Source: Archaeoglobus neptunius
GTDB lineage: Archaea; Halobacteriota; Archaeoglobi; Archaeoglobales; Archaeoglobaceae
Length of the DNA stretch: 64,000 nt
Direction: 5' to 3'
Assembly: GCF_016757965.1 (NCBI RefSeq)
Contig: NZ_JAEKIW010000008.1
Location: 1-64,000, forward strand
Below are positions 13,445 through 62,722 of this stretch, piece after piece. Both the position numbers and the translations under genes were made by a program. How positions within the stretch are numbered: position 1 is the first letter of the stretch; each line of letters begins with the position of its first letter. Below the pieces are notes generated by a model that did not search any database, had not been told where the DNA came from, and saw nothing but the letters and a program-made list of their open reading frames with translations.

Positions 13445-14206
13445 CTACCACACCGGCGTTCTCTTCTCGAAGAACGCCGATATCCCCTCTCTCGCATCCT
13501 CTGTCGAGCTGTAAAGTGAGATCGCCTCCGTTGCGTATGCCAGAGCCTGAAAGTCCTCCATAAAGAGCTGCTTGTAAAAAAACCTTTTTCCGGATTCAAG
13601 TACGTTCAGACTGTACCCTGCCACTTTTTCTGCCAGATTCATTGTTTCCTCTTCAAGCCTGTCGTCCTCAACAACTTTGTTGACCAGCCCAAACCGCATG
13701 GCTTCATCTGCTGTTATGAACTCCCCGGTGAATCCCATCTCGAATGCCTTCTTTCTTCCAACAGCCCTGCTAACGAAGGTTACTGGAGTGAAGCAGAAAA
13801 GACCGATTTTAACACCCGGTGTGGCAAAGAGTGCCGATTTTGCAGCAACAGCCATATCACATGCTGCAACAAGCTGACAGCCTGCTGCAGTTGCAACACC
13901 ATGTACCTGGGCTATATACGGCTGAGGAGCGTCTCTAATAGCCTGCATCACCCTGTAGCACTGGTTAAAAAGACGCTCCACCTCGATCGGATGCTGGTTC
14001 AGAATCTCTTTAAGGTCGTGACCGGAAGAGAACGCCTTTCCGGCTCCTCTGATTACGACAACCCTCACCCTTCTTTCAGCGGAAACTCTACCAATCAGCT
14101 CTTCAAGCTCTGCAAGAAGGTCCATTGACAGTGCGTTTCTCGTTTCAGGGCGGTTCAGGGTTATTACACCCACCTTTCCGAATTCCTCGTAGACCAGATT
14201 TTTCAT
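13445..14206 (-). CDS. Enoyl-CoA hydratase/isomerase family protein (ECHDC3-like crotonase)
   Basis: 253 residues with the crotonase fold. The oxyanion-hole segments are 'GKAFSSGHDLKEI' and 'VHGVATAAGCQLVAACDMA', and the C-terminus has 'VLESGKRFFYKQL'. The GHDL version and 'ATPGVKIGLFCFTP' resemble the ECHDC3 branch of the family rather than classical FadB-type hydratases. One of the two catalytic Glu positions of true hydratases appears to be absent (Ala/Gly in 'ATAAGCQL'), so it may catalyse another CoA-ester reaction. It ends 2 bp from the convergent nurA stop. Confidence 0.85.
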   Translation of the reverse strand: MKNLVYEEFGKVGVITLNRPETRNALSMDLLAELEELIGRVSAERRVRVVVIRGAGKAFSSGHDLKEILNQHPIEVERLFNQCYRVMQAIRDAPQPYIAQVHGVATAAGCQLVAACDMAVAAKSALFATPGVKIGLFCFTPVTFVSRAVGRKKAFEMGFTGEFITADEAMRFGLVNKVVEDDRLEEETMNLAEKVAGYSLNVLESGKRFFYKQLFMEDFQALAYATEAISLYSSTEDAREGISAFFEKRTPVW

Positions 14207-47287: not shown

Positions 47288-49612
47288 ATGGACAGGATTG
47301 AAAGACTTGTCAGAAACGTGAACAAACCTGCAAGATTAAGCATTCACAGGGCAAAACTCTATACAGACTCAATAAAGCGTACAGAGGGAGAACCTGCGAT
47401 TATCAGGCAGGCAAAAGCCTTGAAAAACATTCTCGAGAACATACCCATACAGATTCTCGATGGTGAGCTGATTGTCGGAACCATGCTTCCCGATCCTCCC
47501 GGGGCGATTCTTTTTCCCGAAGGTGTGGGGTTGAGGATAATAAATGAACTCGATTCTCTCCCCACCAGAGATACGAACAGATTGCTGGTGGATGAGGAAG
47601 AAGCGAGGATTCTCAGAGAAGAAATAGCTCCTTACTGGTATGGAAAGACGATCGAGGCCTTTGCATATCCACTGATGCCTGATGTGATGAACGTGCTGTA
47701 CACGGGTTCTGTTTTCGTGCTGACAGAAATGGCGGGAATATCTCATGTGGCAGTAAACTACCCCTATCTGATGAGAAGGGGTTTCAGACTGTTTCTTGAG
47801 GAGAGTAAGAAAAGATTAAAGGAGCTGGAGGAGAAAGGTGTTTATGAGGGTGAGAAATATGCGTTCTACCAGGCTGCAGGAATAGTTTCGGAGGCTGTAA
47901 TCAACTACGGGCTGAGGTATGCCGAACTTGCGGAGAAGCTGGCTGAAGAAGAGAAAGATGACAGAAGAGAAGAACTCCTAAGAATTGCAGAGATATGCAG
48001 AAAGGTTCCCGCTGAAAAACCGGAGAGCTTCTGGGAGGCTGTTCAGTTTCTCTGGATCGTTCAATCTGCACTTCATCAGGAGAACTATGAGCAGGCAATC
48101 TCAATGGGGAGAATAGACCAGTACCTGTTCCCGTTCTTTCAGAAAGACCTCAGGGAAGGTAAAATAGATAGGCAAAGAGCATTTGAGATTCTGGCAAATC
48201 TCTGGATAAAGACAAACGAGATAGTCCCCCCGTTCGACTCTCTGCTGGAGCAGTTCTTCAGCGGTCAAACTACGAATCAGGCTCTAACAATAGGCGGGTG
48301 TGATATCTACGGAAGGGATGCGACCAACGATCTGACGTACCTCATGCTCGAGGTTACGGACAGACTGAGGTTGAGACAGCCAAATGTTCATGTTAGAGTC
48401 AGCAGGAGAACACCCGATGATTTTCTGAACAGGCTGGCTGAATCTATAGCTTCAGGCTGCAATGCACTGGCTCTGTTCCACGATGATGTGGCGGTGGAGG
48501 CTCTGAGACTGGCTGGAGTGAGCGATGAGGATGCGTGGAATTACACCACTGTTGGCTGTGTGGAGATTGCACCTTTCGGTAACAGCTTCACCTCAAGTGA
48601 TGCTGCGCTGGTCAACATCGCAAAAGCCCTGGAATACGCCATGAACGGTGGAAAGGACATGCAATTCGGTTACGAATTTGGATTAAAAACTGAGAAGCCA
48701 GAAACACTTGAAGACCTGATTGAAAACTTCAGGATCCAGCTCTCCCACATCATCGGGCTTGTTGTAAAGGGGTGCAACATTCTTGGCTATGCAAATGCCG
48801 AGGTCAAACCAACACCACTCCTGTCTCTGTGCATCGAAGATTGTTTTGAGGCTGGATTGGACGTGACAAGGGGTGGTGCGAAGTACAACTTCACCGGAAT
48901 ACAGGCTGTTGGTGTTGCCGATGTAGGGGACTCTTTTGCGGCTATTGAAGAGGCTTTGAAGCTCGGTTACTCAATGGACGACATCATTGAGGCGTGCAGA
49001 AAGAACTTCGCTGAGTGTGAGGAGCTTCATAAACTTCTGAGCGAAAGTCCGAAGTACGGCAACGATGACGACAGGGCGGACAGGTATGCAAGAATGGTTC
49101 TTGAATATTACTGCAATGAAGTGAACAGGCACAGAAACTTCAGAAACGGTCATTTTGCTGCAGGCTGCTATCCCATGACGACAAACACCGGCTTTGGCTT
49201 CTTCACCTCAGCCCTTCCATCGGGCAGGAAAGGTGGCGAACCGCTCAACCCGGGTGTTGGCCCATCTACTGGAAGAGACCGGGAGGGGGTTACAGCGATC
49301 ATAAAGTCGGCATCAAAGATAAACTATGCAAAACTGCCGAATGGCGCATCCCTCACCCTAAATCTGAGCAGTGATGTTCTGGGTGCGAAGGGGTCGGCTG
49401 TTGTTAAGGCCCTTATAAAGAGTTTCATAGATCTGGGTGGAATGCACATTCAGTTCAACATACTGAATGAGGATGTCCTCAGGAAGGCCCAGAAAAATCC
49501 GGAGGAGTTCAGATGGTTGCTTGTGAGGGTGGCAGGATGGAGTGCGTACTTTGTTGAGCTGTCAAAGCCTGTGCAGGACGAGATAATCCGGAGAATTTCA
49601 TGCAGGGTTTGA
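47288..49612 (+). CDS. pflD: Glycyl radical enzyme (PflD-like pyruvate formate-lyase homologue)
   Basis: 774 residues from the ATG at 47288. The active-site Cys is C424 in 'TTVGCVEIAPFG', the following Glu is E426, and the radical-bearing Gly is G750 in 'RVAGWSAYF'. The GCVE arrangement places it with the diol/glycerol dehydratase, choline lyase and PflD branch, not with true pyruvate formate-lyase. Archaeoglobus PflD is a known but functionally unassigned member. A TATA-like 'tttaagtata' lies at about 47258-47267. It is followed immediately by its activase. Confidence 0.92.
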   Translation: MDRIERLVRNVNKPARLSIHRAKLYTDSIKRTEGEPAIIRQAKALKNILENIPIQILDGELIVGTMLPDPPGAILFPEGVGLRIINELDSLPTRDTNRLLVDEEEARILREEIAPYWYGKTIEAFAYPLMPDVMNVLYTGSVFVLTEMAGISHVAVNYPYLMRRGFRLFLEESKKRLKELEEKGVYEGEKYAFYQAAGIVSEAVINYGLRYAELAEKLAEEEKDDRREELLRIAEICRKVPAEKPESFWEAVQFLWIVQSALHQENYEQAISMGRIDQYLFPFFQKDLREGKIDRQRAFEILANLWIKTNEIVPPFDSLLEQFFSGQTTNQALTIGGCDIYGRDATNDLTYLMLEVTDRLRLRQPNVHVRVSRRTPDDFLNRLAESIASGCNALALFHDDVAVEALRLAGVSDEDAWNYTTVGCVEIAPFGNSFTSSDAALVNIAKALEYAMNGGKDMQFGYEFGLKTEKPETLEDLIENFRIQLSHIIGLVVKGCNILGYANAEVKPTPLLSLCIEDCFEAGLDVTRGGAKYNFTGIQAVGVADVGDSFAAIEEALKLGYSMDDIIEACRKNFAECEELHKLLSESPKYGNDDDRADRYARMVLEYYCNEVNRHRNFRNGHFAAGCYPMTTNTGFGFFTSALPSGRKGGEPLNPGVGPSTGRDREGVTAIIKSASKINYAKLPNGASLTLNLSSDVLGAKGSAVVKALIKSFIDLGGMHIQFNILNEDVLRKAQKNPEEFRWLLVRVAGWSAYFVELSKPVQDEIIRRISCRV

Positions 49613-50508
49613 TGAAGGGCAGAATTTTCAGAATACAGAGATTTTCAATACACGATGGATATGGCATCAGGACGACAGTCTTTCTCAAAGGCTGTCCTCT
49701 GAGGTGCATCTGGTGTCACAACCCGGAATCTCAGAAATTCGATATCGAGGTTGGGTACAAAATCGAAAAATGCAACCTGTGTTTCAGGTGTGGAGGGATA
49801 TGTGAGGCAATCGGGCATGCTGATGGCGTTGAGATAGACAGAGGACGGTGCGATGGATGCGGAAGATGTGTTGAAATTTGCAGTGCTGGGGCGTTTGAGC
49901 TTTACGGATTGGATGTTGGTGTGGAGGATGTCATGAATCTGATCGAGAAAGATGCTGTGTTTTACAAAAATTCAGGCGGAGGAGTGACTTTTTCCGGTGG
50001 CGAGCCCTACTTTCAACCGGACTTTCTGCTTGCTCTGCTCAAGGCCTGTAAAAATATGGGGATAAACACCGCCGTTGACACCTCTGGATATGCAAAGTGG
50101 AGCACCATAGAGAGAACTCTTCCGTTTGTTGATTTCTTCCTTTATGATCTGAAGGATTACAGGGATGACAGGCACAGAAAATTTTGCGGAGCGGGAAACG
50201 AGCCAATCATTTCCAACCTGAAAAAACTCATCGATGCTGGAAAGGAGGTGATTGTGAGGATACCCGTTGTTCCGGGGTACAACTTCGAGAACGGAGATTT
50301 TGAGGGGTATTTTAAGGTTCTTGAAAATACAGGCTGTGAGAGGGTGGATGTCCTGCCCTTCCATTCCCTCGCCGTGGACAAGTACAGATGGTTGGGAAGG
50401 GACTGGGATTTTCCCGACATTACCAGAAGGGCGAGAGAGATGTCCGAAGAATTTGCCCGGTTTCTGGAGAAAAGAGGAATGCAGACATCCATTGGAGGAT
50501 ATTTCTGA
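49612..50508 (+). CDS. pflC: Glycyl radical enzyme activating enzyme (radical SAM, PflC-like)
   Basis: 298 residues from the ATG at 49612, overlapping the pflD stop (TGATG); an earlier ATG at 49600 is in frame. The radical SAM motif is 'CPLRCIWCHNPES' (CxxxCxxC). It is followed by a ferredoxin-type insert with two 4Fe-4S motifs ('CNLCFRCGGIC' and 'CDGCGRCVEIC'), then 'SGGEP'. It generates the glycyl radical on G750 of PflD with AdoMet. Oxygen-sensitive chemistry fits a strict anaerobe. Confidence 0.94.
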   Translation: MKGRIFRIQRFSIHDGYGIRTTVFLKGCPLRCIWCHNPESQKFDIEVGYKIEKCNLCFRCGGICEAIGHADGVEIDRGRCDGCGRCVEICSAGAFELYGLDVGVEDVMNLIEKDAVFYKNSGGGVTFSGGEPYFQPDFLLALLKACKNMGINTAVDTSGYAKWSTIERTLPFVDFFLYDLKDYRDDRHRKFCGAGNEPIISNLKKLIDAGKEVIVRIPVVPGYNFENGDFEGYFKVLENTGCERVDVLPFHSLAVDKYRWLGRDWDFPDITRRAREMSEEFARFLEKRGMQTSIGGYF

Positions 50509-55898: not shown

Positions 55899-56720
55899 TT
55901 ATTCTTCAACAACTCCACCAACAACCTCCATCAGTTCTTGCGAATCGTTCTCATCGCCGTACTGGTTAACAAGCCTGATTATCTCTCTCAGGTCCTTAAC
56001 ACACTCCTTAGTGTGCTGAACAGCGCTCTTTACAGCATTTCTGACGTCCTTCATGGCTTCAAAACCCTGTTGTGGGGTCTCAATTCCCATCACCTTTTCT
56101 TTTGCTTCGTTGATTCTCTCAAGCGCTTTTTCTCTGTCTTCTGAGTACTTATCCAGCCAGTTCTCCAGCATTGTTGTGTCCTTGCCCTCTTCCTGGAACT
56201 TTGCAATCTTCTCCTTAACAAAGTCTTCTATTCTGTCTCCTCCCTCCACGAACGTTTCAAGCCTGTCAAGCACCGCTATTATCATGCTCTTCTGAAGTGA
56301 AACTTTCGCATCGATCCAGATACTCCGTGCATTTTTCATTGCCTCCCTGTACTCCTCAACCGTCTGCGCACTTTCAATCTGTTCCTTTGCGTTGATCAGG
56401 TCTGTTATATGCTCGTTGATTTCGCCAATTATCTGATCCTTCATGCTCAGATTACTGTCCTCGAGTTTCTCCTTTATACTCTCAAGGGATGCAACTCCAA
56501 AGTCCACCATTGCAACCCCGAGATTCTTTGCCTCATCAAGTGTATCGTTGTTCAGCACCAGACCAAATCTGTGCCACTCTCTCACCTTCTTCAGCACTCC
56601 GGTGGTCTCTTTCATTTTTTCTGCATACATACTCCCATTCCCAACTGCCATAGCTGCTGGCATTAAGATCGCCAGCAGGGCAAAGATTGCCGCCAGCCTT
56701 CCAAACCTTCCGCCAACCAT
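55899..56720 (-). CDS. Secreted alpha-helical protein, unknown
   Basis: 273 residues. A signal peptide is clear (about 1-25, 'LAAIFALLAILMPAAMAVG'). The rest is predicted almost entirely helical, with charged repeats such as 'LEDSNLSMKDQIIGEINEHI', 'LDRLETFVEGGDRIEDFVKE' and 'AVQHTKECVKDLREIIRLV'. There is one Cys and no catalytic motif. Such proteins are frequent in Archaeoglobales and of unknown role, perhaps in the cell envelope. It ends one base from the convergent radA stop. Confidence 0.65.
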   Translation of the reverse strand: MVGGRFGRLAAIFALLAILMPAAMAVGNGSMYAEKMKETTGVLKKVREWHRFGLVLNNDTLDEAKNLGVAMVDFGVASLESIKEKLEDSNLSMKDQIIGEINEHITDLINAKEQIESAQTVEEYREAMKNARSIWIDAKVSLQKSMIIAVLDRLETFVEGGDRIEDFVKEKIAKFQEEGKDTTMLENWLDKYSEDREKALERINEAKEKVMGIETPQQGFEAMKDVRNAVKSAVQHTKECVKDLREIIRLVNQYGDENDSQELMEVVGGVVEE

Positions 56721-56858: not shown

Positions 56859-57725
56859 TCACTTGAAAAATTTTTCAAGCGGGTTGCTTTTATACCGTGC
56901 TTCAAGAACAGCTATGCCGTTTTCAATCAGAACTTTTATGGCATCTGAAATGTTCTCATTTTTCTCAGTTCCGACAATCAGTGCGGATTTGGTGACAGAA
57001 ACACTGAAACCGTGGTCTTTCAGAATTTCTCCCGCCTTATCCGGATTGCTGACCTTCAGCAGCATCTCTGTCGAACCCACAAGTGACTGCAGATCCTTTT
57101 CTACCAGCATCCTTCCCCCTTTCACTATGGCCACCCTGCCCTCCTCGAAGTTGTGAATTTCATCGAGAATGTGGGTTGAAAGGAGAATGGACTTTTTCTC
57201 CTCCAGCATCTCAAAAATTCTGTCTCTGAGAGCCATAACTGACTCGATGTCAAGATTGCTGAAAGGTTCATCGAGAATCACAACTTCCGGATCGTGAAGG
57301 AGGGTTCTGGCAATTGCCAGCCTCTTTCTCAAACCTCTACTGAGTGTTCCTGCCATTTTGTTTCTGTACTCACTCAATCCAAAATTCTCTAAAATTTCCC
57401 GGATCCTGTCCTCCCCTATTCCATATATTTTTGCAAAGAACTCCATGTTTTTGAGAACTGTAAGGTCCGGGTAAACTCTTTCACCTTCCGGCAGGTAACC
57501 CAGTCTGGATTTGACTCTCTCATCCTCCCAGATATCAACACCGTCAATCATGACCCTGCCCTTCGTCGGCGGCAGGATTCCGGCAACAACTCTGAAAATC
57601 GTGGTTTTTCCACTTCCATTTGGTCCCAGGAGAATGTAGATTTCTCCCCTACCAATCCTGAAATTCACATTGTGGATAACCTCTCCATCTCCGTATCCGG
57701 CGCTAACGTTTTTTACATCAATCAA
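56859..57725 (-). CDS. ABC transporter ATPase (NatA/CcmA type)
   Basis: 288 residues. Walker A 'LLGPNGSGKTTIFRVVAG' near residue 33, Q-loop 'LGYLPEGERVYPDL', signature 'LSRGLRKRLAIARTLL', Walker B 'EVVILDEPFSNLD' and switch 'ILLSTHILDEI'. The last 75 residues form the extra C-terminal domain found in drug/Na+/bacteriocin-type ABC-2 exporters. It is the last gene of the peptide/PqqD-like/permease cluster, 9 bp after the permease. Confidence 0.9.
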   Translation of the reverse strand: MIDVKNVSAGYGDGEVIHNVNFRIGRGEIYILLGPNGSGKTTIFRVVAGILPPTKGRVMIDGVDIWEDERVKSRLGYLPEGERVYPDLTVLKNMEFFAKIYGIGEDRIREILENFGLSEYRNKMAGTLSRGLRKRLAIARTLLHDPEVVILDEPFSNLDIESVMALRDRIFEMLEEKKSILLSTHILDEIHNFEEGRVAIVKGGRMLVEKDLQSLVGSTEMLLKVSNPDKAGEILKDHGFSVSVTKSALIVGTEKNENISDAIKVLIENGIAVLEARYKSNPLEKFFK

Positions 57726-57734
57726 GGGATCACC

Positions 57735-58535
57735 TCAGTTTACGATAAAGCTCAGCCTGTTAATCGTTCTTTTCAGTGCAACTGTCAGTAGCAGTGAAAC
57801 CACAAACGCAAAACCTCCGAGCAGCTCGACAGCCATGAAAAATATGGCCGGAGAGTGGCTGAGGCCCACCACAAAGAGGGCGATTGGAAGGAGTCCTGCA
57901 AGACTACCCCACTTTGTGGCCTGGGAGCTTTTCGCTCTGACGCTTATGAGGAGTGCCAAAGGCAGTGCGAGGAGCATCATGGAGAGGGGAAGAACTGTTA
58001 TCATCGTGAGATAACCCGACGTCGGAGTCCAGAGCCGTGAGGTGTTCATCCAGTACAGTATTTCTATCGCTGCGGTATTGACAGCTCCGCTCAAAGCCAC
58101 CGTTGCACCTGCGATACACATGCAGAACAGGATTTTTCCGTAGATTATGTCCTCGTCTCTGAGAGGTGTGGAGAACAGCACTTCCATCGTTTTGTTCACC
58201 CTCTCCGTCATGAAGGACTGAACAACTGCGTTGTAGGTTGTTATGTATGCGAAAATCTGAATTACAATGGGAATCTGGGCAATCAGAACTGCCATGGAGA
58301 TTGCAGCATCCCCAAGCCCGTCTACATCGGTATGGGAAAGCCCGAAAAACTGTGGAGAGGATTTGATCTGGTTTATCGCAATTGCTCTTGACTGAGGAGT
58401 GAGCACAACACCGTTGGTCAGCACAACTGCTGTAAGGAGGAGTACAAGGATCAGCGGCGGGATTATGTGGCTGTAAAGGTAGGAGGGATTCTCCCTAAGC
58501 GTCCAGAGCTCTTTTCTGAAAATTACACCCATCAT
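57735..58535 (-). CDS. ABC-2 type permease
   Basis: 266 residues from the ATG-ATG at 58535 ('MMGVIFRKELWTLRENPSY'), since earlier in-frame starts lie further inside the upstream gene. About six membrane helices; 'FRKELWTLRENPSYLYSHII' and 'SFMTERVNKTMEVLFSTPLR' followed by 'DEDIIYGKI' are ABC-2 exporter motifs. It pairs with the following ATPase. The start overlaps the PH-like gene by 41 bp. The likely cargo is a peptide or lipid; immunity or export for the Ala/Val-rich peptide is inference. Confidence 0.85.
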   Translation of the reverse strand: MMGVIFRKELWTLRENPSYLYSHIIPPLILVLLLTAVVLTNGVVLTPQSRAIAINQIKSSPQFFGLSHTDVDGLGDAAISMAVLIAQIPIVIQIFAYITTYNAVVQSFMTERVNKTMEVLFSTPLRDEDIIYGKILFCMCIAGATVALSGAVNTAAIEILYWMNTSRLWTPTSGYLTMITVLPLSMMLLALPLALLISVRAKSSQATKWGSLAGLLPIALFVVGLSHSPAIFFMAVELLGGFAFVVSLLLTVALKRTINRLSFIVN

Positions 58536-58920
58536 CAACCATCCCCCGGTCAAGTATGAACATCATCTCATCCGTCTCCACGAAAACACCATCCACATCA
58601 GTAGTGTACACCCAGACTTTTCCGTAAGTGCTTGTGAACAAACCGAAATTAATTTTACCGGCAGATATCCCGAGCAGTCTTGCTCTGAGTACACCTCTAA
58701 CATCCACAGGGAACATGCTTTTCACTTCAAGCTGCCTTTTCCTGAACAGGTATTTTACCAGCAACTTGCTGTTGTCGACCTTCAGGTCATAGGGCAAAAA
58801 AATCAGGGACAGCAAAAGCAGAGACGCCAGAAACACCGAGATGTAACGGAGGTCAATGGCACTCACAAAGATGATTGATAGCAGGAGGGTTGCAAGGACT
58901 GAAATGTAAAGTTTTTTCAT
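58495..58920 (-). CDS. Two-helix membrane protein with PH-like domain
   Basis: 141 residues. Two membrane helices (about 5-20 and 27-44, 'ISVFLASLLLLSLIFLP') are followed by a beta-rich cytoplasmic domain ('LKVDNSKLLVKYLFRKRQLE', 'VKSMFPVDVRGVLRARLLG'). It ends in an acidic strand 'GVFVETDEMMFILDRG' and resembles bacterial PH-like (bPH2/DUF304) proteins. It overlaps the PqqD-like gene by 4 bp and the permease by 41 bp, so it is part of the same operon. Such proteins occur in bacteriocin immunity/secretion clusters, but its role here is open. Confidence 0.6.
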   Translation of the reverse strand: MKKLYISVLATLLLSIIFVSAIDLRYISVFLASLLLLSLIFLPYDLKVDNSKLLVKYLFRKRQLEVKSMFPVDVRGVLRARLLGISAGKINFGLFTSTYGKVWVYTTDVDGVFVETDEMMFILDRGMVDDGCNFQKRALDA

Positions 58921-59291
58921 GCTCCATCCTCCAGCAGAGTTTGAATATTCACAATCCCCTCACCCCCTTCCAGTTCAACAAAACCGTTGAGCAGCAGCCA
59001 TGTTAATGCCCCCTTCAAGTCCCTTTCCAGAATGTTGATGGACACTTCGTCGTATACATCGGATAGAACAGCCAGAATTTCATGAAAGTCCACCGGTGCC
59101 CTCTGAATTATGGTCTCGTAGATTAATGCTAGGGTTGGATTCAGCACGCATATTTTCCCTGTGAGAGGGCTGAAAGTCAGTATTCTGCCATCATCTTCCT
59201 TCCGGTATTTGTTGACCATGAAGGGTTTCACCAAACTTTTGCTGAAATCAAGTTTCTCTATTTTTTCTTTTATATATTCAATTCTGTTCAT
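58917..59291 (-). CDS. PqqD-like protein (RiPP recognition element fold)
   Basis: 124 residues. From about residue 36 the pattern 'GRILTFSPLTGKICVLNPTL' is the N-terminal beta-hairpin of PqqD-like winged domains (G-x-i-x-f-s-p...lN). Then come 'ALIYETIIQRAPVDFHEIL' and 'INILERDLKGALTWLLLNGF' plus 'VEL', the helices and wing. PqqD-type domains bind leader peptides in RiPP pathways. A 35-residue Lys-rich extension precedes it. It sits two short frames downstream of the Ala/Val-rich peptide, with 4 bp overlap to the PH-like gene. Confidence 0.65.
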   Translation of the reverse strand: MNRIEYIKEKIEKLDFSKSLVKPFMVNKYRKEDDGRILTFSPLTGKICVLNPTLALIYETIIQRAPVDFHEILAVLSDVYDEVSINILERDLKGALTWLLLNGFVELEGGEGIVNIQTLLEDGA

Positions 59292-59439
59292 GCCCCATCA
59301 CCCGGCAAACCTCTTTTTCAAGGTCTAGTAACTCTTTGCTGCTCAAATTTCTGAGATTGATGATGTTCTCGTCACTCGCCCTTGTTAAAAGCAGTTTTGA
59401 GAGTTTTACAAAATCCGTCTCCGAATTAATATTTTCGGA
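59278..59439 (-). CDS. 53-codon open frame before the PqqD-like gene, no canonical start
   Basis: An open frame reads 'NSETDFVKLSKLLLTRASDE' onward to 'LRNLSSKELLDLEKEVCRVM' and ends in TGA within the start of the PqqD-like gene (14 bp overlap). It has the look of a real helical protein, but from its upstream stop there is no ATG or GTG; the only TTG leaves about 20 residues. It might use a rare ATT start, or be joined to an upstream ATG (59449) by a shift. Confidence 0.35.
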   Translation of the reverse strand, partial: SENINSETDFVKLSKLLLTRASDENIINLRNLSSKELLDLEKEVCRVMGHEQN

Positions 59440-59458
59440 TCACCATCAGACCACCGTT

Positions 59459-59614
59459 CTATGCAATAACAACAACCAGTGCCGCCGCTGCAGCAACCAC
59501 AACCACTGCTGCTGCCGCAACCACAGCAGCAACTGCCACGGCAACAGGTCCGTAAACGGCGTTGTATGTCATTCCCACTTCTCCTCCCACAGGTGGTATG
59601 TAGTTTGCTGTCAT
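59459..59614 (-). CDS. 51-residue Ala/Val-rich peptide, candidate RiPP/bacteriocin precursor
   Basis: ATG at 59614. Polar leader-like part 'MTANYIPPVGGEVGMTYN', then 'AVYGPVAVAVAAVVAAAAVV', then a further 13 hydrophobic residues ending 'LVVVIA'. About 33 residues are almost purely Ala and Val with no charge. A Gly-Gly at residues 10-11 could be a processing point. It could instead be a plain single-span membrane peptide. A TATA-like 'gttaatattt' (about 59640-59650 on the plus strand) suits a leaderless start. It is the first gene of the cluster running down to 56859. Confidence 0.55.
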   Translation of the reverse strand: MTANYIPPVGGEVGMTYNAVYGPVAVAVAAVVAAAAVVVVAAAAALVVVIA

Positions 59615-59836
59615 GATATAATGAATCAATGTGGAAAATATTAACTTTTCTATTAGATAAAAATAGACATCATAGTGATCATAAACTGTTCGGTGACCAA
59701 AATTGCTGCTCCATTAGCATCTATAATGTAATTTTATTTTATCTGCTGTGAGATCTTACCTCCATCTTTATTTTTAAACAGGCAAATTAGGTAAAATTTA
59801 AGTATTGGCCAAATATCAAGTATAATTGGTGATGAA

Positions 59837-60979
59837 ATGGTAGCTGTTGTTGGAGTCGGGTATTCGGGTTTTAACTCCACCACACCCGACCTGAGCTGGA
59901 AGGAAATCATGTATGAAGCGGCTTTAAGGGCCTACACCGATGCAGGTGTCAACCCGCGGAGAGATGTGGACAGCTTCATAACGTGTGCTGAGGACATCTA
60001 TGAGGGTTTTGCAATTTTCGACGAGTTCGTTCCGGATCAGCTCGGGGCAGTGGTCAAACCTACCTGCACTGTATGCGGGGACTTCATTTACGGAGTGGCA
60101 ACTGCGTACATGCACATAAAAAGCGGACTGGCGGACATCGCTGTTGTTGAAGCCCACAGCAAGGCAAGCGACATTCATGCTCTCGGAAACGTCATAAAAT
60201 TTGCAATGGATCCGGTATGGCTCAGAAATGTTGGAAACGCTCATCCTTACTATCTGGCAGCTCTTGAGATGTTTCAGTACATGTCAGAAAGGTGCCTGGC
60301 CGAGGAGGACGTTGCTGGGGTTGTGGTCAAAAACAAAAATAACGCCCTGCTAAATCCGTCTGCACCGTATGCTGCCAATGTATCTCTTGATGACGTGATG
60401 GCCAGTCCAAAGCTCTTCGATCCAATGAAGAAGCTGGAGATCGCCCCGATTGCCGATGGATGTGTCGTCTTTGTTCTTGCCAGCGATGAAATTGCAAGAG
60501 AGCTGACAGACAGTCCTGTTTGGGTTAAGGGAGTTGGATGGTGGAGCGAAACCTACGGCTACGATACTGCGAGCTTCTCCGCCATGTATGCCTACAAGGC
60601 AGCAAAAATGGCCTACAGGATGGCAGGTATAGCAAATCCAGCAAAGGAAGTGGATTTTGCCGAGGTGGATGATAGATTTGCCTTCAAGGAGTTGCAGCAC
60701 ATCGAGGCGTTGCAACTGGCCGACAAATTTGATGTTGCGAGGCTTATGGCGGAAGGATACTTCGACAGAGATGGTGCACTGCCTGTTAACGTTTCGGGAG
60801 GGAGTCTTGGTGTGGGAAATCTCCTCGAGTGCACGGGTGGACAGAAAGCTCTTGAGGTGGTACTGCAGCTTCGTGGTGAGGCCGGGAAGAGACAGCTTGA
60901 CGATGTTAATGTGGGTGTCGCTCAGGCATGGAGGTATCTGCCAACCCATAGTGGTGCAGTTGCAGTTTTCGGAGTGTGA
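59837..60979 (+). CDS. Thiolase-superfamily protein, subunit 1 (catalytic Cys kept, His motif lost)
   Basis: 380 residues with GGTGATG just upstream. Archaeal thiolase/SCP-x type fold. C80 in 'TCTVCGDFIYGVATAYMHIK' aligns by spacing to the nucleophilic Cys of thiolases (17 residues before the Gly of 'KSG'). The C-terminal loop that is usually G-H-P-x-G-A-T-G reads 'SLGVGNLLECTGG', so the catalytic His is replaced by Asn. It shares a TGATG junction with a second thiolase-like gene, and both precede two DUF35 proteins, the usual partners in CoA-thiolase/aldolase complexes. Confidence 0.8.
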   Translation: MVAVVGVGYSGFNSTTPDLSWKEIMYEAALRAYTDAGVNPRRDVDSFITCAEDIYEGFAIFDEFVPDQLGAVVKPTCTVCGDFIYGVATAYMHIKSGLADIAVVEAHSKASDIHALGNVIKFAMDPVWLRNVGNAHPYYLAALEMFQYMSERCLAEEDVAGVVVKNKNNALLNPSAPYAANVSLDDVMASPKLFDPMKKLEIAPIADGCVVFVLASDEIARELTDSPVWVKGVGWWSETYGYDTASFSAMYAYKAAKMAYRMAGIANPAKEVDFAEVDDRFAFKELQHIEALQLADKFDVARLMAEGYFDRDGALPVNVSGGSLGVGNLLECTGGQKALEVVLQLRGEAGKRQLDDVNVGVAQAWRYLPTHSGAVAVFGV

Positions 60980-62187
60980 TGGTTATGGAAGTTGAGAGGA
61001 TTAGTGGTTTGAAGTTTCACAAGAAGCAGGATGTGGCAATCGTTGGGGCCGGAATGACCACGTGGAAGAGGAGATTAAATGAAACCGGGAGAGAACTCAG
61101 CTACCTGGCTGTCAAGCAGGCCCTGGAAGAAGCTGGTCTGACTCTGGATGATATCGAAATGGTTGTAATGGGTTCAGCCCCTGACACGTTCGATGGTCTG
61201 CACCTAAAAGGAGAGTATCTCCTTGACGGCTCAGGTGGGAGCGACAGACCCTACATGAGAGTATTCGTGGGTGGGGGAACGGGAGTTTTTGCCCCCATTG
61301 CAGGATACTGGCATGTAGCAAGTGGTTTGGCAGATGTCTGTCTCGTGGTTTGTGAGGAGAAGATGTCTTCAAGCTATCCCCACCCGCAGTCGGCTTTCAA
61401 GTACATCTGGGATCCAATCCTTGACAGACCCCTGAACCCAAACCTGATCTGGATATTCGCCCTGGAGATGCGCCGCTATATGCACGTCCACAACATCAAG
61501 CATGAGGACATAGCTCTCGTATCCGTCAAGAACAAGGCAAATGCCCTGGACCATCCGTGTGCCCAGGTTGCGGAGAAGATAACCGTTGAGGATGTTCTGA
61601 ACAGCGAGCCGATGGCTTTGCCTGTAAGAAGGCTGGATGTCTCTCCACCGAGTGATGGTGCCGCTGCACTGATCATGGTTGCCCCGCATATCGCCAGACA
61701 GCTCACAGACAACCCCGTGTGGGTTACTGGTGTTGGATGGGCACTTGATACAACATGGTGGACGAACAGAGACCTCTACTTCCCACGCTATGTTGCCGAG
61801 GCTGCTAAGATGGCGTACAGGATGGCACACGTAACAGATCCGAGAAAGGAGATCGATGTGGCTGAACCCTACGACCCCTTTGACTACAAGGAGCTTCACC
61901 ACATGGAAGGTCTTGGTCTGGCTAAGAAAGGAGAGGCACCGATTCTGACGAGGGAAGGAGTTACCCAGAGAGATGGAGATCTTCCGACCTGCCCCTCCGG
62001 AGGACTGCTGGGAGTTGGTAATCCAATTGCAGCAACGATGGGTGTCAAGGCCTGCGAGATCTACTGGCAGCTAGCCTACAGAGCGGGGAAAAGACAGGTG
62101 GCAAAGGAGGTCACAACCGGGGTATGTCAGGCCTGGGGAGACCTGATGCAGGTTGGAACTGTTATGGTTATGTCAAACAAGAGGTGA
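60979..62187 (+). CDS. Thiolase-superfamily protein, subunit 2 (no catalytic Cys)
   Basis: 402 residues from the ATG at 60979 overlapping the previous stop (an ATG at 60985 is also possible). 'VAIVGAGMTTWKRRLNETG' opens the fold. The position of the nucleophilic Cys lies in 'VGGGTGVFAPIAGYWHVASG' and is Gly, and the His loop reads 'SGGLLGVGNPIAATMG' with Asn. It therefore resembles the Ltp2-like or structural subunits that act with a DUF35 partner, e.g. as a retro-aldolase or as half of a heteromeric thiolase. Exact reaction unknown. Confidence 0.8.
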   Translation: MVMEVERISGLKFHKKQDVAIVGAGMTTWKRRLNETGRELSYLAVKQALEEAGLTLDDIEMVVMGSAPDTFDGLHLKGEYLLDGSGGSDRPYMRVFVGGGTGVFAPIAGYWHVASGLADVCLVVCEEKMSSSYPHPQSAFKYIWDPILDRPLNPNLIWIFALEMRRYMHVHNIKHEDIALVSVKNKANALDHPCAQVAEKITVEDVLNSEPMALPVRRLDVSPPSDGAAALIMVAPHIARQLTDNPVWVTGVGWALDTTWWTNRDLYFPRYVAEAAKMAYRMAHVTDPRKEIDVAEPYDPFDYKELHHMEGLGLAKKGEAPILTREGVTQRDGDLPTCPSGGLLGVGNPIAATMGVKACEIYWQLAYRAGKRQVAKEVTTGVCQAWGDLMQVGTVMVMSNKR

Positions 62188-62188
62188 T

Positions 62189-62722
62189 ATGATGGCTGTT
62201 GGCAAAAAGGAGATTGAATGCCCACCCTACGCTGAGGGAACACCTCTCAGTGACAGGGATATAAAAGAAAGGAAGGTAACCTACGTTGAGGATCACCCGG
62301 ATATTCGATATTCATGGTCAGCCGGCCAGGCAATAAGCAAATTTCTCAACGGGTTGAAAGAGGGCAGGATTCTGGGGGTAAAGTGCAACAAGTGTGGCAG
62401 GATCATGGTGCCACCAAGAATGTTCTGTGAACTGTGTTTCAAGCCCATTGATGGATGGGTGGAGCTTGAAGACACCGGAACAGTACAGACATTTTCCATA
62501 TCCTATATCGATCCTGATGCAAAGCCCTTGCCTGAACCAATCATTGTCGCTGTTATTGCGATTGACGGGGCCTCGCAAAACATGGGAATAATGCACATTC
62601 TGGACGAGGTAAAGCCCGAGGACGTTTACATTGGAATGAAGGTTAAGGCTGTGTGGAAGAGCGAAGAGGAGAGAGAGGGGGCGATTACGGATATAAAGTA
62701 CTGGAAGCCTCTGGAGGGGTGA
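62189..62722 (+). CDS. DUF35 zinc-ribbon/OB-fold protein, first copy
   Basis: 177 residues from ATG-ATG at 62189/62192 with GAGGTGAT upstream. The zinc ribbon 'GVKCNKCGRIMVPPRMFCEL' plus 'CFKPI' keeps all four Cys (CxxC...CxxC). It is followed by the OB-fold 'WVELEDTGTVQTFSISYID'. These proteins bind CoA-ester substrates in complexes with thiolase-like enzymes (as in archaeal thiolase/HMG-CoA synthase, BbsA-BbsB or ChsH2-Ltp2). Confidence 0.9.
   Translation: MMAVGKKEIECPPYAEGTPLSDRDIKERKVTYVEDHPDIRYSWSAGQAISKFLNGLKEGRILGVKCNKCGRIMVPPRMFCELCFKPIDGWVELEDTGTVQTFSISYIDPDAKPLPEPIIVAVIAIDGASQNMGIMHILDEVKPEDVYIGMKVKAVWKSEEEREGAITDIKYWKPLEG

Follow-up and report, generated by a model that had tools for sequence, protein, structure and literature searches.

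An operon of Archaeoglobus neptunius that combines an alanine/valine peptide, an RRE-like protein and an ABC-2 exporter: a possible bacteriocin-like export system

Can a peptide built almost entirely of alanine and valine be the product of a pathway that has a precursor-recognition protein and an exporter, and no modifying enzyme beside them? The question is raised by an operon of the archaeon Archaeoglobus neptunius, located at positions 56859-59614 on the minus strand of the analyzed window (the whole 64,000-nt stretch, positions 1 to 64,000 of contig NZ_JAEKIW010000008.1). A preliminary description, made from the sequence alone, listed six frames here and suggested an archaeal system for a ribosomally synthesized and post-translationally modified peptide (RiPP) or a bacteriocin. 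Open-reading-frame (ORF) analysis recovers all six of them on the minus strand, overlapping or nearly abutting, in the 5'-3' order peptide, short frame, PqqD-like protein, pleckstrin homology (PH)-like protein, ABC-2 permease and ATPase. The reading preferred here, to which a probability of about 0.5 is given, is that the operon serves the export of a hydrophobic, membrane-active, bacteriocin-like peptide assisted by a RiPP recognition element (RRE), with the peptide left unmodified or else modified in trans. It is based on the overlapping-gene operon, the promoter at the coding peptide, the unique Ala/Val core, and the RRE, PH and ABC-2 matches.

The first gene (59459-59614) encodes a 51-residue precursor-like peptide, MTANYIPPVGGEVGMTYNAVYGP-VAVAVAAVVAAAAVVVVAAAAALVVVIA, with a polar and aromatic, leader-like N-terminal half and a 28-residue Ala/Val-rich C-terminal half. 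The gene has a codon score of 0.469, higher than that of any of the 135 shadow ORFs (maximum 0.197). The Ala/Val-only core noticed earlier is confirmed as a stretch of 22 consecutive Ala and Val residues, the sole run of at least 11 residues found in six frames, with 1.16 Mb of other fetched loci included. The codons of this run are mixed (GCA 8, GCT 3, GCG 3 and GCC 2; GTT 9 and GTG 6), and since four Ala and two Val codons are used, it is not a DNA microsatellite. The peptide is a real coding sequence and not a chance frame. The core contains only A, V, L and I, there is no basic residue anywhere in the peptide, and hydropathy analysis gives a single hydrophobic segment (Kyte-Doolittle value 3.06) long enough to span a membrane.

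An archaeal BRE/TATA-like element, GAAAAG-TTAATATT, is centered exactly 26 nt before the peptide ATG (59637-59650, minus strand, coordinates calculated from its spacing to the ATG). It matches 10 of the 12 consensus positions, with a shuffle fraction of 0.02. The -26 spacing is well established for archaeal promoters and is also present at several other genes of the window. Its position suggests that the peptide has its own archaeal promoter and that the mRNA is leaderless, starting at the ATG itself (59614).

The next frame (about 59278-59430) might encode a 50-residue helical protein, INSETDFVKLSKLLLTRASDENIINLRNLSSKELLDLEKEVCRVMGHEQN. The short helical frame of the preliminary description does exist, but it has no ATG, GTG or TTG start; a possible start is ATT (59430) behind the Shine-Dalgarno (SD)-like GGTGATC. 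Among shadow ORFs the 95th percentile of the codon score is 0.005, which the value of this frame, 0.073, only just exceeds, and no Pfam or PHROG match was found for it. The frame would gain an ATG if the A-run ahead of it contained an indel of one base or a frameshift, a point for which there is a single genome to go by, and the frame is kept as an uncertain, possible gene only. It overlaps the PqqD-like gene by 14 bp, so that its stop overlaps the start of that gene.

The protein encoded at 58917-59291 (124 residues) is the center of the argument. PqqD is its sole Pfam match (E 0.016; 16.0 bits, the family cut-off being 23.4), and the NCBIfam model PqqD_rel_X matches at E 0.036. For a more sensitive comparison a profile was built from 15 standalone PqqDs of other archaea in the phylum, and hhalign aligned the protein to it over 77 columns of the domain with P 2.1e-6 and a probability of 89.4%. 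In the same comparison the PH protein of the operon gave P 0.9, a neighboring protein (62153-62722) P 0.11, and two winged-helix regulators P 0.21 and 0.014. RRE-Finder took a PqqD-model probability of at least 80% as the sign of an RRE (PMC7470986), a value that the protein exceeds with the archaeal profile made here. The top four Foldseek matches of its model, whose pLDDT is only 48, are all RREs, including TbiB1 (probability 1.00) and TigE, and SuiB, McbB and a heterocyclase follow lower down. Sequence searches of the PDB gave no match.

The predicted topology, strands followed by three helices, is shared with standalone RREs of the PqqD-like, lasso B1 type (PF05402), of which TbiB1 is the best structural match. 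The protein differs from them in having about 20 additional N-terminal residues and no partner enzymes. Similarity to the archaeal PqqDs extends across the whole domain at the level of profiles, although identity is only about 17-26%. Taken together, profiles and model make an RRE-like fold highly probable. The profile search for RRE similarity had been set beforehand as one of the tests that could refute the proposal, and the similarity is there.

The following gene (58495-58920), which shares an ATGA with the PqqD-like gene, encodes a 141-residue membrane protein with two transmembrane (TM) segments and a C-terminal domain of the bPH_5 type. Pfam bPH_5 matches its soluble part weakly (E 0.2). 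Compared with 15 archaeal bPH_5 (PF10882) proteins of relatives, the protein scores 35.6 bits in hmmsearch and P 1.2e-7 in hhalign, and by these profiles it is a diverged bPH_5 member; a fold search with its model gave no match. In the enterocin DD14 system, PH proteins encoded just upstream of ABC genes, one of them also of 141 residues, are needed for bacteriocin export: deletion of either PH gene stops it, and the accumulated peptide becomes toxic to the producer (PMC8657885).

The permease (57735-58553, 272 residues, about six TM segments) matches Pfam ABC2_membrane_5 with E 9.6e-5, below the cut-off, and its gene overlaps the PH gene by 59 bp if it starts at TTG. After a further 9 bp, which carry the SD sequence GAGGTGATC, the ATPase gene (56859-57725, 288 residues) begins with TTG. 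ABC_tran matches the ATPase with E 1.4e-32, and its closest NCBIfam models, GldA, DrrA and a lantibiotic-protection ATPase, all score below their equivalog cut-offs. The defense-system library returned generic ATPase matches only. By these matches the two proteins are generic parts of an ABC-2 exporter, as had been proposed.

The composition of the core restricts what the product could be. With only A, V, L and I, the known side-chain chemistries of RiPPs (lanthionine, azole, sactionine, lasso macrolactam and graspetide) are excluded, and the product would therefore be unmodified, cleaved, cyclized head-to-tail, or altered only in its backbone or at aliphatic carbons, by an enzyme whose gene lies elsewhere. 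In the proposed mechanism the RRE-like protein would bind the N-terminal half of the peptide, keeping it soluble and away from the producer's own membrane, and deliver it. The two-TM PH protein and the permease/ATPase pair might then expel the peptide, clear the producer membrane of it, or both, providing export and self-protection by analogy with the PH proteins and ABC transporter of enterocin DD14. Outside the cell the core might act in the membranes of competitors, as a bacteriocin would. In the strictest form of this proposal, which is tentative and rather doubtful, no enzyme takes part at all, and the RRE would be purely an export chaperone for the Ala/Val membrane-spanning peptide until it reaches the PH/ABC-2 exporter.

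Several observations weigh against RRE-assisted export, and the first group concerns the leader. The leader-like half, MTANYIPPVGGEVGMTYNAVYGP, contains YIPP, a YxxP sequence, and [Y/W]xxPx[L/V/I/F/A] is the motif of lasso leaders and of those of linear polyphosphorylated peptides (LPPs) (PMC13381572). YxxPx[ILVMF] is found in peptides encoded next to other archaeal PqqD genes. Here the residue two after the Pro is Gly and not a hydrophobic one, and the recognized form of the motif is thus absent. Scored with a leader profile that was built on 21 peptides from PqqD loci of other archaea, the peptide ranks 324 of 489, which is a failure, and YxxP turns up in 34% of its own shuffles, which is not significant. 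On these two grounds the YxxP match counts as a weak lead only. The leader does not convince, and the link between the RRE-like protein and the peptide relies on gene order and logic, not on a motif. The Pfam score and the poor single-sequence AlphaFold2 model of the RRE-like protein count against the proposal as well, as does the PH domain: this archaeal family has many two-TM bPH_5 proteins in settings that have nothing to do with RiPPs, and the domain alone is weak evidence for a bacteriocin. The earlier recognition of a PH-type membrane protein is supported, but its value as a bacteriocin sign is small.

Finally, no protease, cyclase or modifying enzyme was detected among the operon genes or the scanned neighbors, in line with the earlier remark that no RiPP enzyme lies beside the peptide. 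No RiPP modification or processing enzyme was recognized at the locus, a genome-wide scan for radical SAM proteins not having been made. The radical SAM protein encoded at 49600-50508 has the gene of a glycyl-radical enzyme next to its own and is apparently the activase of that enzyme. A precursor-like peptide is, at the same time, encoded next to an RRE-like gene in the same operon, as is expected of RiPP systems. The idea of an archaeal RiPP system thus stays plausible and unproven: the RRE fold, the exporter and the precursor-like peptide agree with it, while the leader fails its profile and gene-order conservation is lacking.

The last point follows from the distribution of the locus. No convincing match to the RRE-like protein was found outside its own genome in searches of 60 relatives, 393 genomes of the phylum and 59 of the class. 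The permease retrieved only generic matches. Genomes of the phylum and the class, genome contigs, viral contigs and plasmids were also searched with the RRE-like protein, permease, PH protein, peptide and ATPase, and nothing useful was returned. Five loci considered as related (L002 and L012-L015) were rejected as chance or generic ABC matches. A shared RRE profile run over 384 genomes recovers the locus itself and PqqDs of known type. The operon is apparently unique among the genomes searched. It had been thought that other Archaeoglobales might keep the gene order, but it is absent from every other genome searched, and that no relative shows co-conservation of the peptide and the RRE also speaks against the proposal. 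The bPH_5 genes were tried as markers of sister clusters in the same family and rejected, their neighborhoods being unrelated; these two-TM proteins are scattered across the family (L166-L185) and adjoin pilin-like genes in L178, L180 and L182.

The genomic setting adds to this picture. Relatives in the genus conserve radA and usually the adjacent gene corresponding to 55899-56720 to the left of the operon site and the thiolase pair to the right of it, but the genes flanking them there differ. The operon sits at a rearrangement point, with a break of synteny on both sides. The product of 55899-56720, which adjoins radA in several members of the genus, is a long-helical protein, either secreted or anchored in the membrane, for which no family match is convincing. 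In one relative (G006, locus L029) the thiolase pair is immediately preceded by an enoyl-CoA hydratase ortholog. In the window the hydratase (13445-14206) and the thiolase pair (59837-62187) are about 46 kb apart, and this separation points to a rearrangement or a large insertion with the operon at one edge. The GC content of the operon is similar to that of surrounding genes, and a recent transfer is neither shown nor excluded by it.

Other explanations of the operon have to be compared with RRE-assisted export. A modifying enzyme acting in trans on the same precursor/RRE pair, for example a radical SAM epimerase or a methyltransferase, is a serious alternative, although on balance an unlikely one. 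The Ala/Val core could in that case become a pore of D-amino acids or C-methylated residues, by analogy with polytheonamide and gramicidin. The aliphatic-only core would suit backbone or aliphatic chemistry, RREs normally serve modifying enzymes, and among the other PqqD loci of archaea in the phylum are pairs of a peptide and a PqqD that also lack an obvious modifying enzyme next to them; the locus itself offers no candidate enzyme, given the apparent activase role of the radical SAM protein. Also rather improbable is an efflux, self-protection or lipid/stress module, in which the PH protein and the ABC-2 exporter work on an outside compound, the Ala/Val peptide always stays with the cell as a small single-pass membrane subunit or a regulator, and the RRE-like protein serves as an adaptor. 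ABC-2 and PH genes do occur without RiPPs, PH proteins being widespread in unrelated contexts, the peptide as encoded would span a membrane, and no leader peptidase was found. Such a module leaves unexplained the promoter position at the peptide gene and the presence of a standalone RRE-like protein, given that the relatives known so far bind precursor leaders.

The PqqD-like protein might instead be a winged-helix regulator of an ABC-2 operon, as in operons of the GntR/YtrA type, and have no connection to RiPPs. False positives in RRE searches are mainly helix-turn-helix (HTH) proteins (PMC7470986), whose fold is related. In this case the possibility is slight: no HTH or DNA-binding family matches the protein in Pfam at E of 1 or below, PqqD is its only match there, its best Foldseek matches are RREs and not DNA-binding proteins, and the winged-helix controls miss the PqqD profile. 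It is similarly hard to credit that the operon is what is left of a larger RiPP cluster, for instance of the lasso or HprK type, which decayed and lost its enzymes at the rearrangement point. The synteny break on both sides, the frame without a normal start between the peptide and the RRE, and the single occurrence would fit such a history, but the genes that remain are all intact and have the codon usage of coding sequences, several are preceded by SD sequences, and the core has no lasso acceptor residue (Asp/Glu).

RRE-assisted export has partial counterparts among known systems. Leaderless bacteriocins of the enterocin DD14/aureocin A53 type are cationic and lack a leader, and their clusters are not known to encode an RRE, whereas the present peptide has a leader-like half beside an RRE-like gene and no basic residue, and the PH protein is of the bPH_5 type. 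Their clusters likewise encode a small hydrophobic peptide and no modifying enzyme, and place a PH-domain membrane protein directly upstream of the ABC genes (PMC8657885). Circular bacteriocin clusters (AS-48, garvicin ML) also combine a hydrophobic peptide with an ABC ATPase, a permease and small membrane proteins. A DUF95/SpoIIM gene is present in all of them (PMC6131525), while no Pfam match to this family was found among the proteins of the present operon, which has an RRE-like protein instead.

LPP and lasso clusters share with the operon a standalone RRE, a YxxP in the N-terminal half of the precursor and an ABC exporter, and there is a precedent for a standalone RRE with a YxxP precursor and no cyclase (PMC13381572). 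In contrast to them, the operon has no HprK kinase, NTP transferase, signal-peptidase-like or cysteine leader peptidase, or cyclase (neither the B2 peptidase nor the C cyclase of lasso pathways), its core lacks Ser, Thr, Asp and Glu, and its exporter is ABC-2 and not MsbA-like.

Other PqqD loci of the phylum show different arrangements. In six archaeal genomes a conserved peptide of 35-47 residues is encoded directly beside a standalone PqqD gene (L084:4827-4934, L097:3776-3886, L115:2475-2618, L116:7621-7749, L124:8042-8161 and L130:7997-8110), with the consensus KK-x-Y-xx-P-K-I-EEW-x-SL-xx-xMDGAGGL. The neighbors differ, and no modifying enzyme is evident alongside; the two genes look like a conserved RRE-precursor pair, perhaps with a cofactor role. 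Three loci (L088:3875-8003, L095:5581-9861 and L121:3831-8276) contain two radical SAM proteins, a PqqD, a signal-peptidase-like protein and Gly/Cys-rich precursors with YxxP leaders, and are candidate archaeal RiPP clusters. Three tandem lasso-like precursor genes (TYQTPELKVHGS...TADGxGS) at L087:5068-5586 lie near an asparagine-synthetase-like protein, a PqqD and an ABC exporter.

The core of the A. neptunius peptide, almost only Ala and Val, is about as chemically simple as peptides get, and it falls outside every RiPP class based on side-chain chemistry. RREs are normally regarded as adaptors that serve modifying enzymes, and a case in which the sole partner is an exporter would point to the handling of hydrophobic peptides as a possible basic role of the domain. 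A route consisting of an RRE chaperone, a PH protein and an ABC-2 exporter, if true, would represent a new, enzyme-free class of RRE-dependent bacteriocin, and, if RRE-assisted export holds, a peptide weapon would be added to a hyperthermophilic archaeal order.

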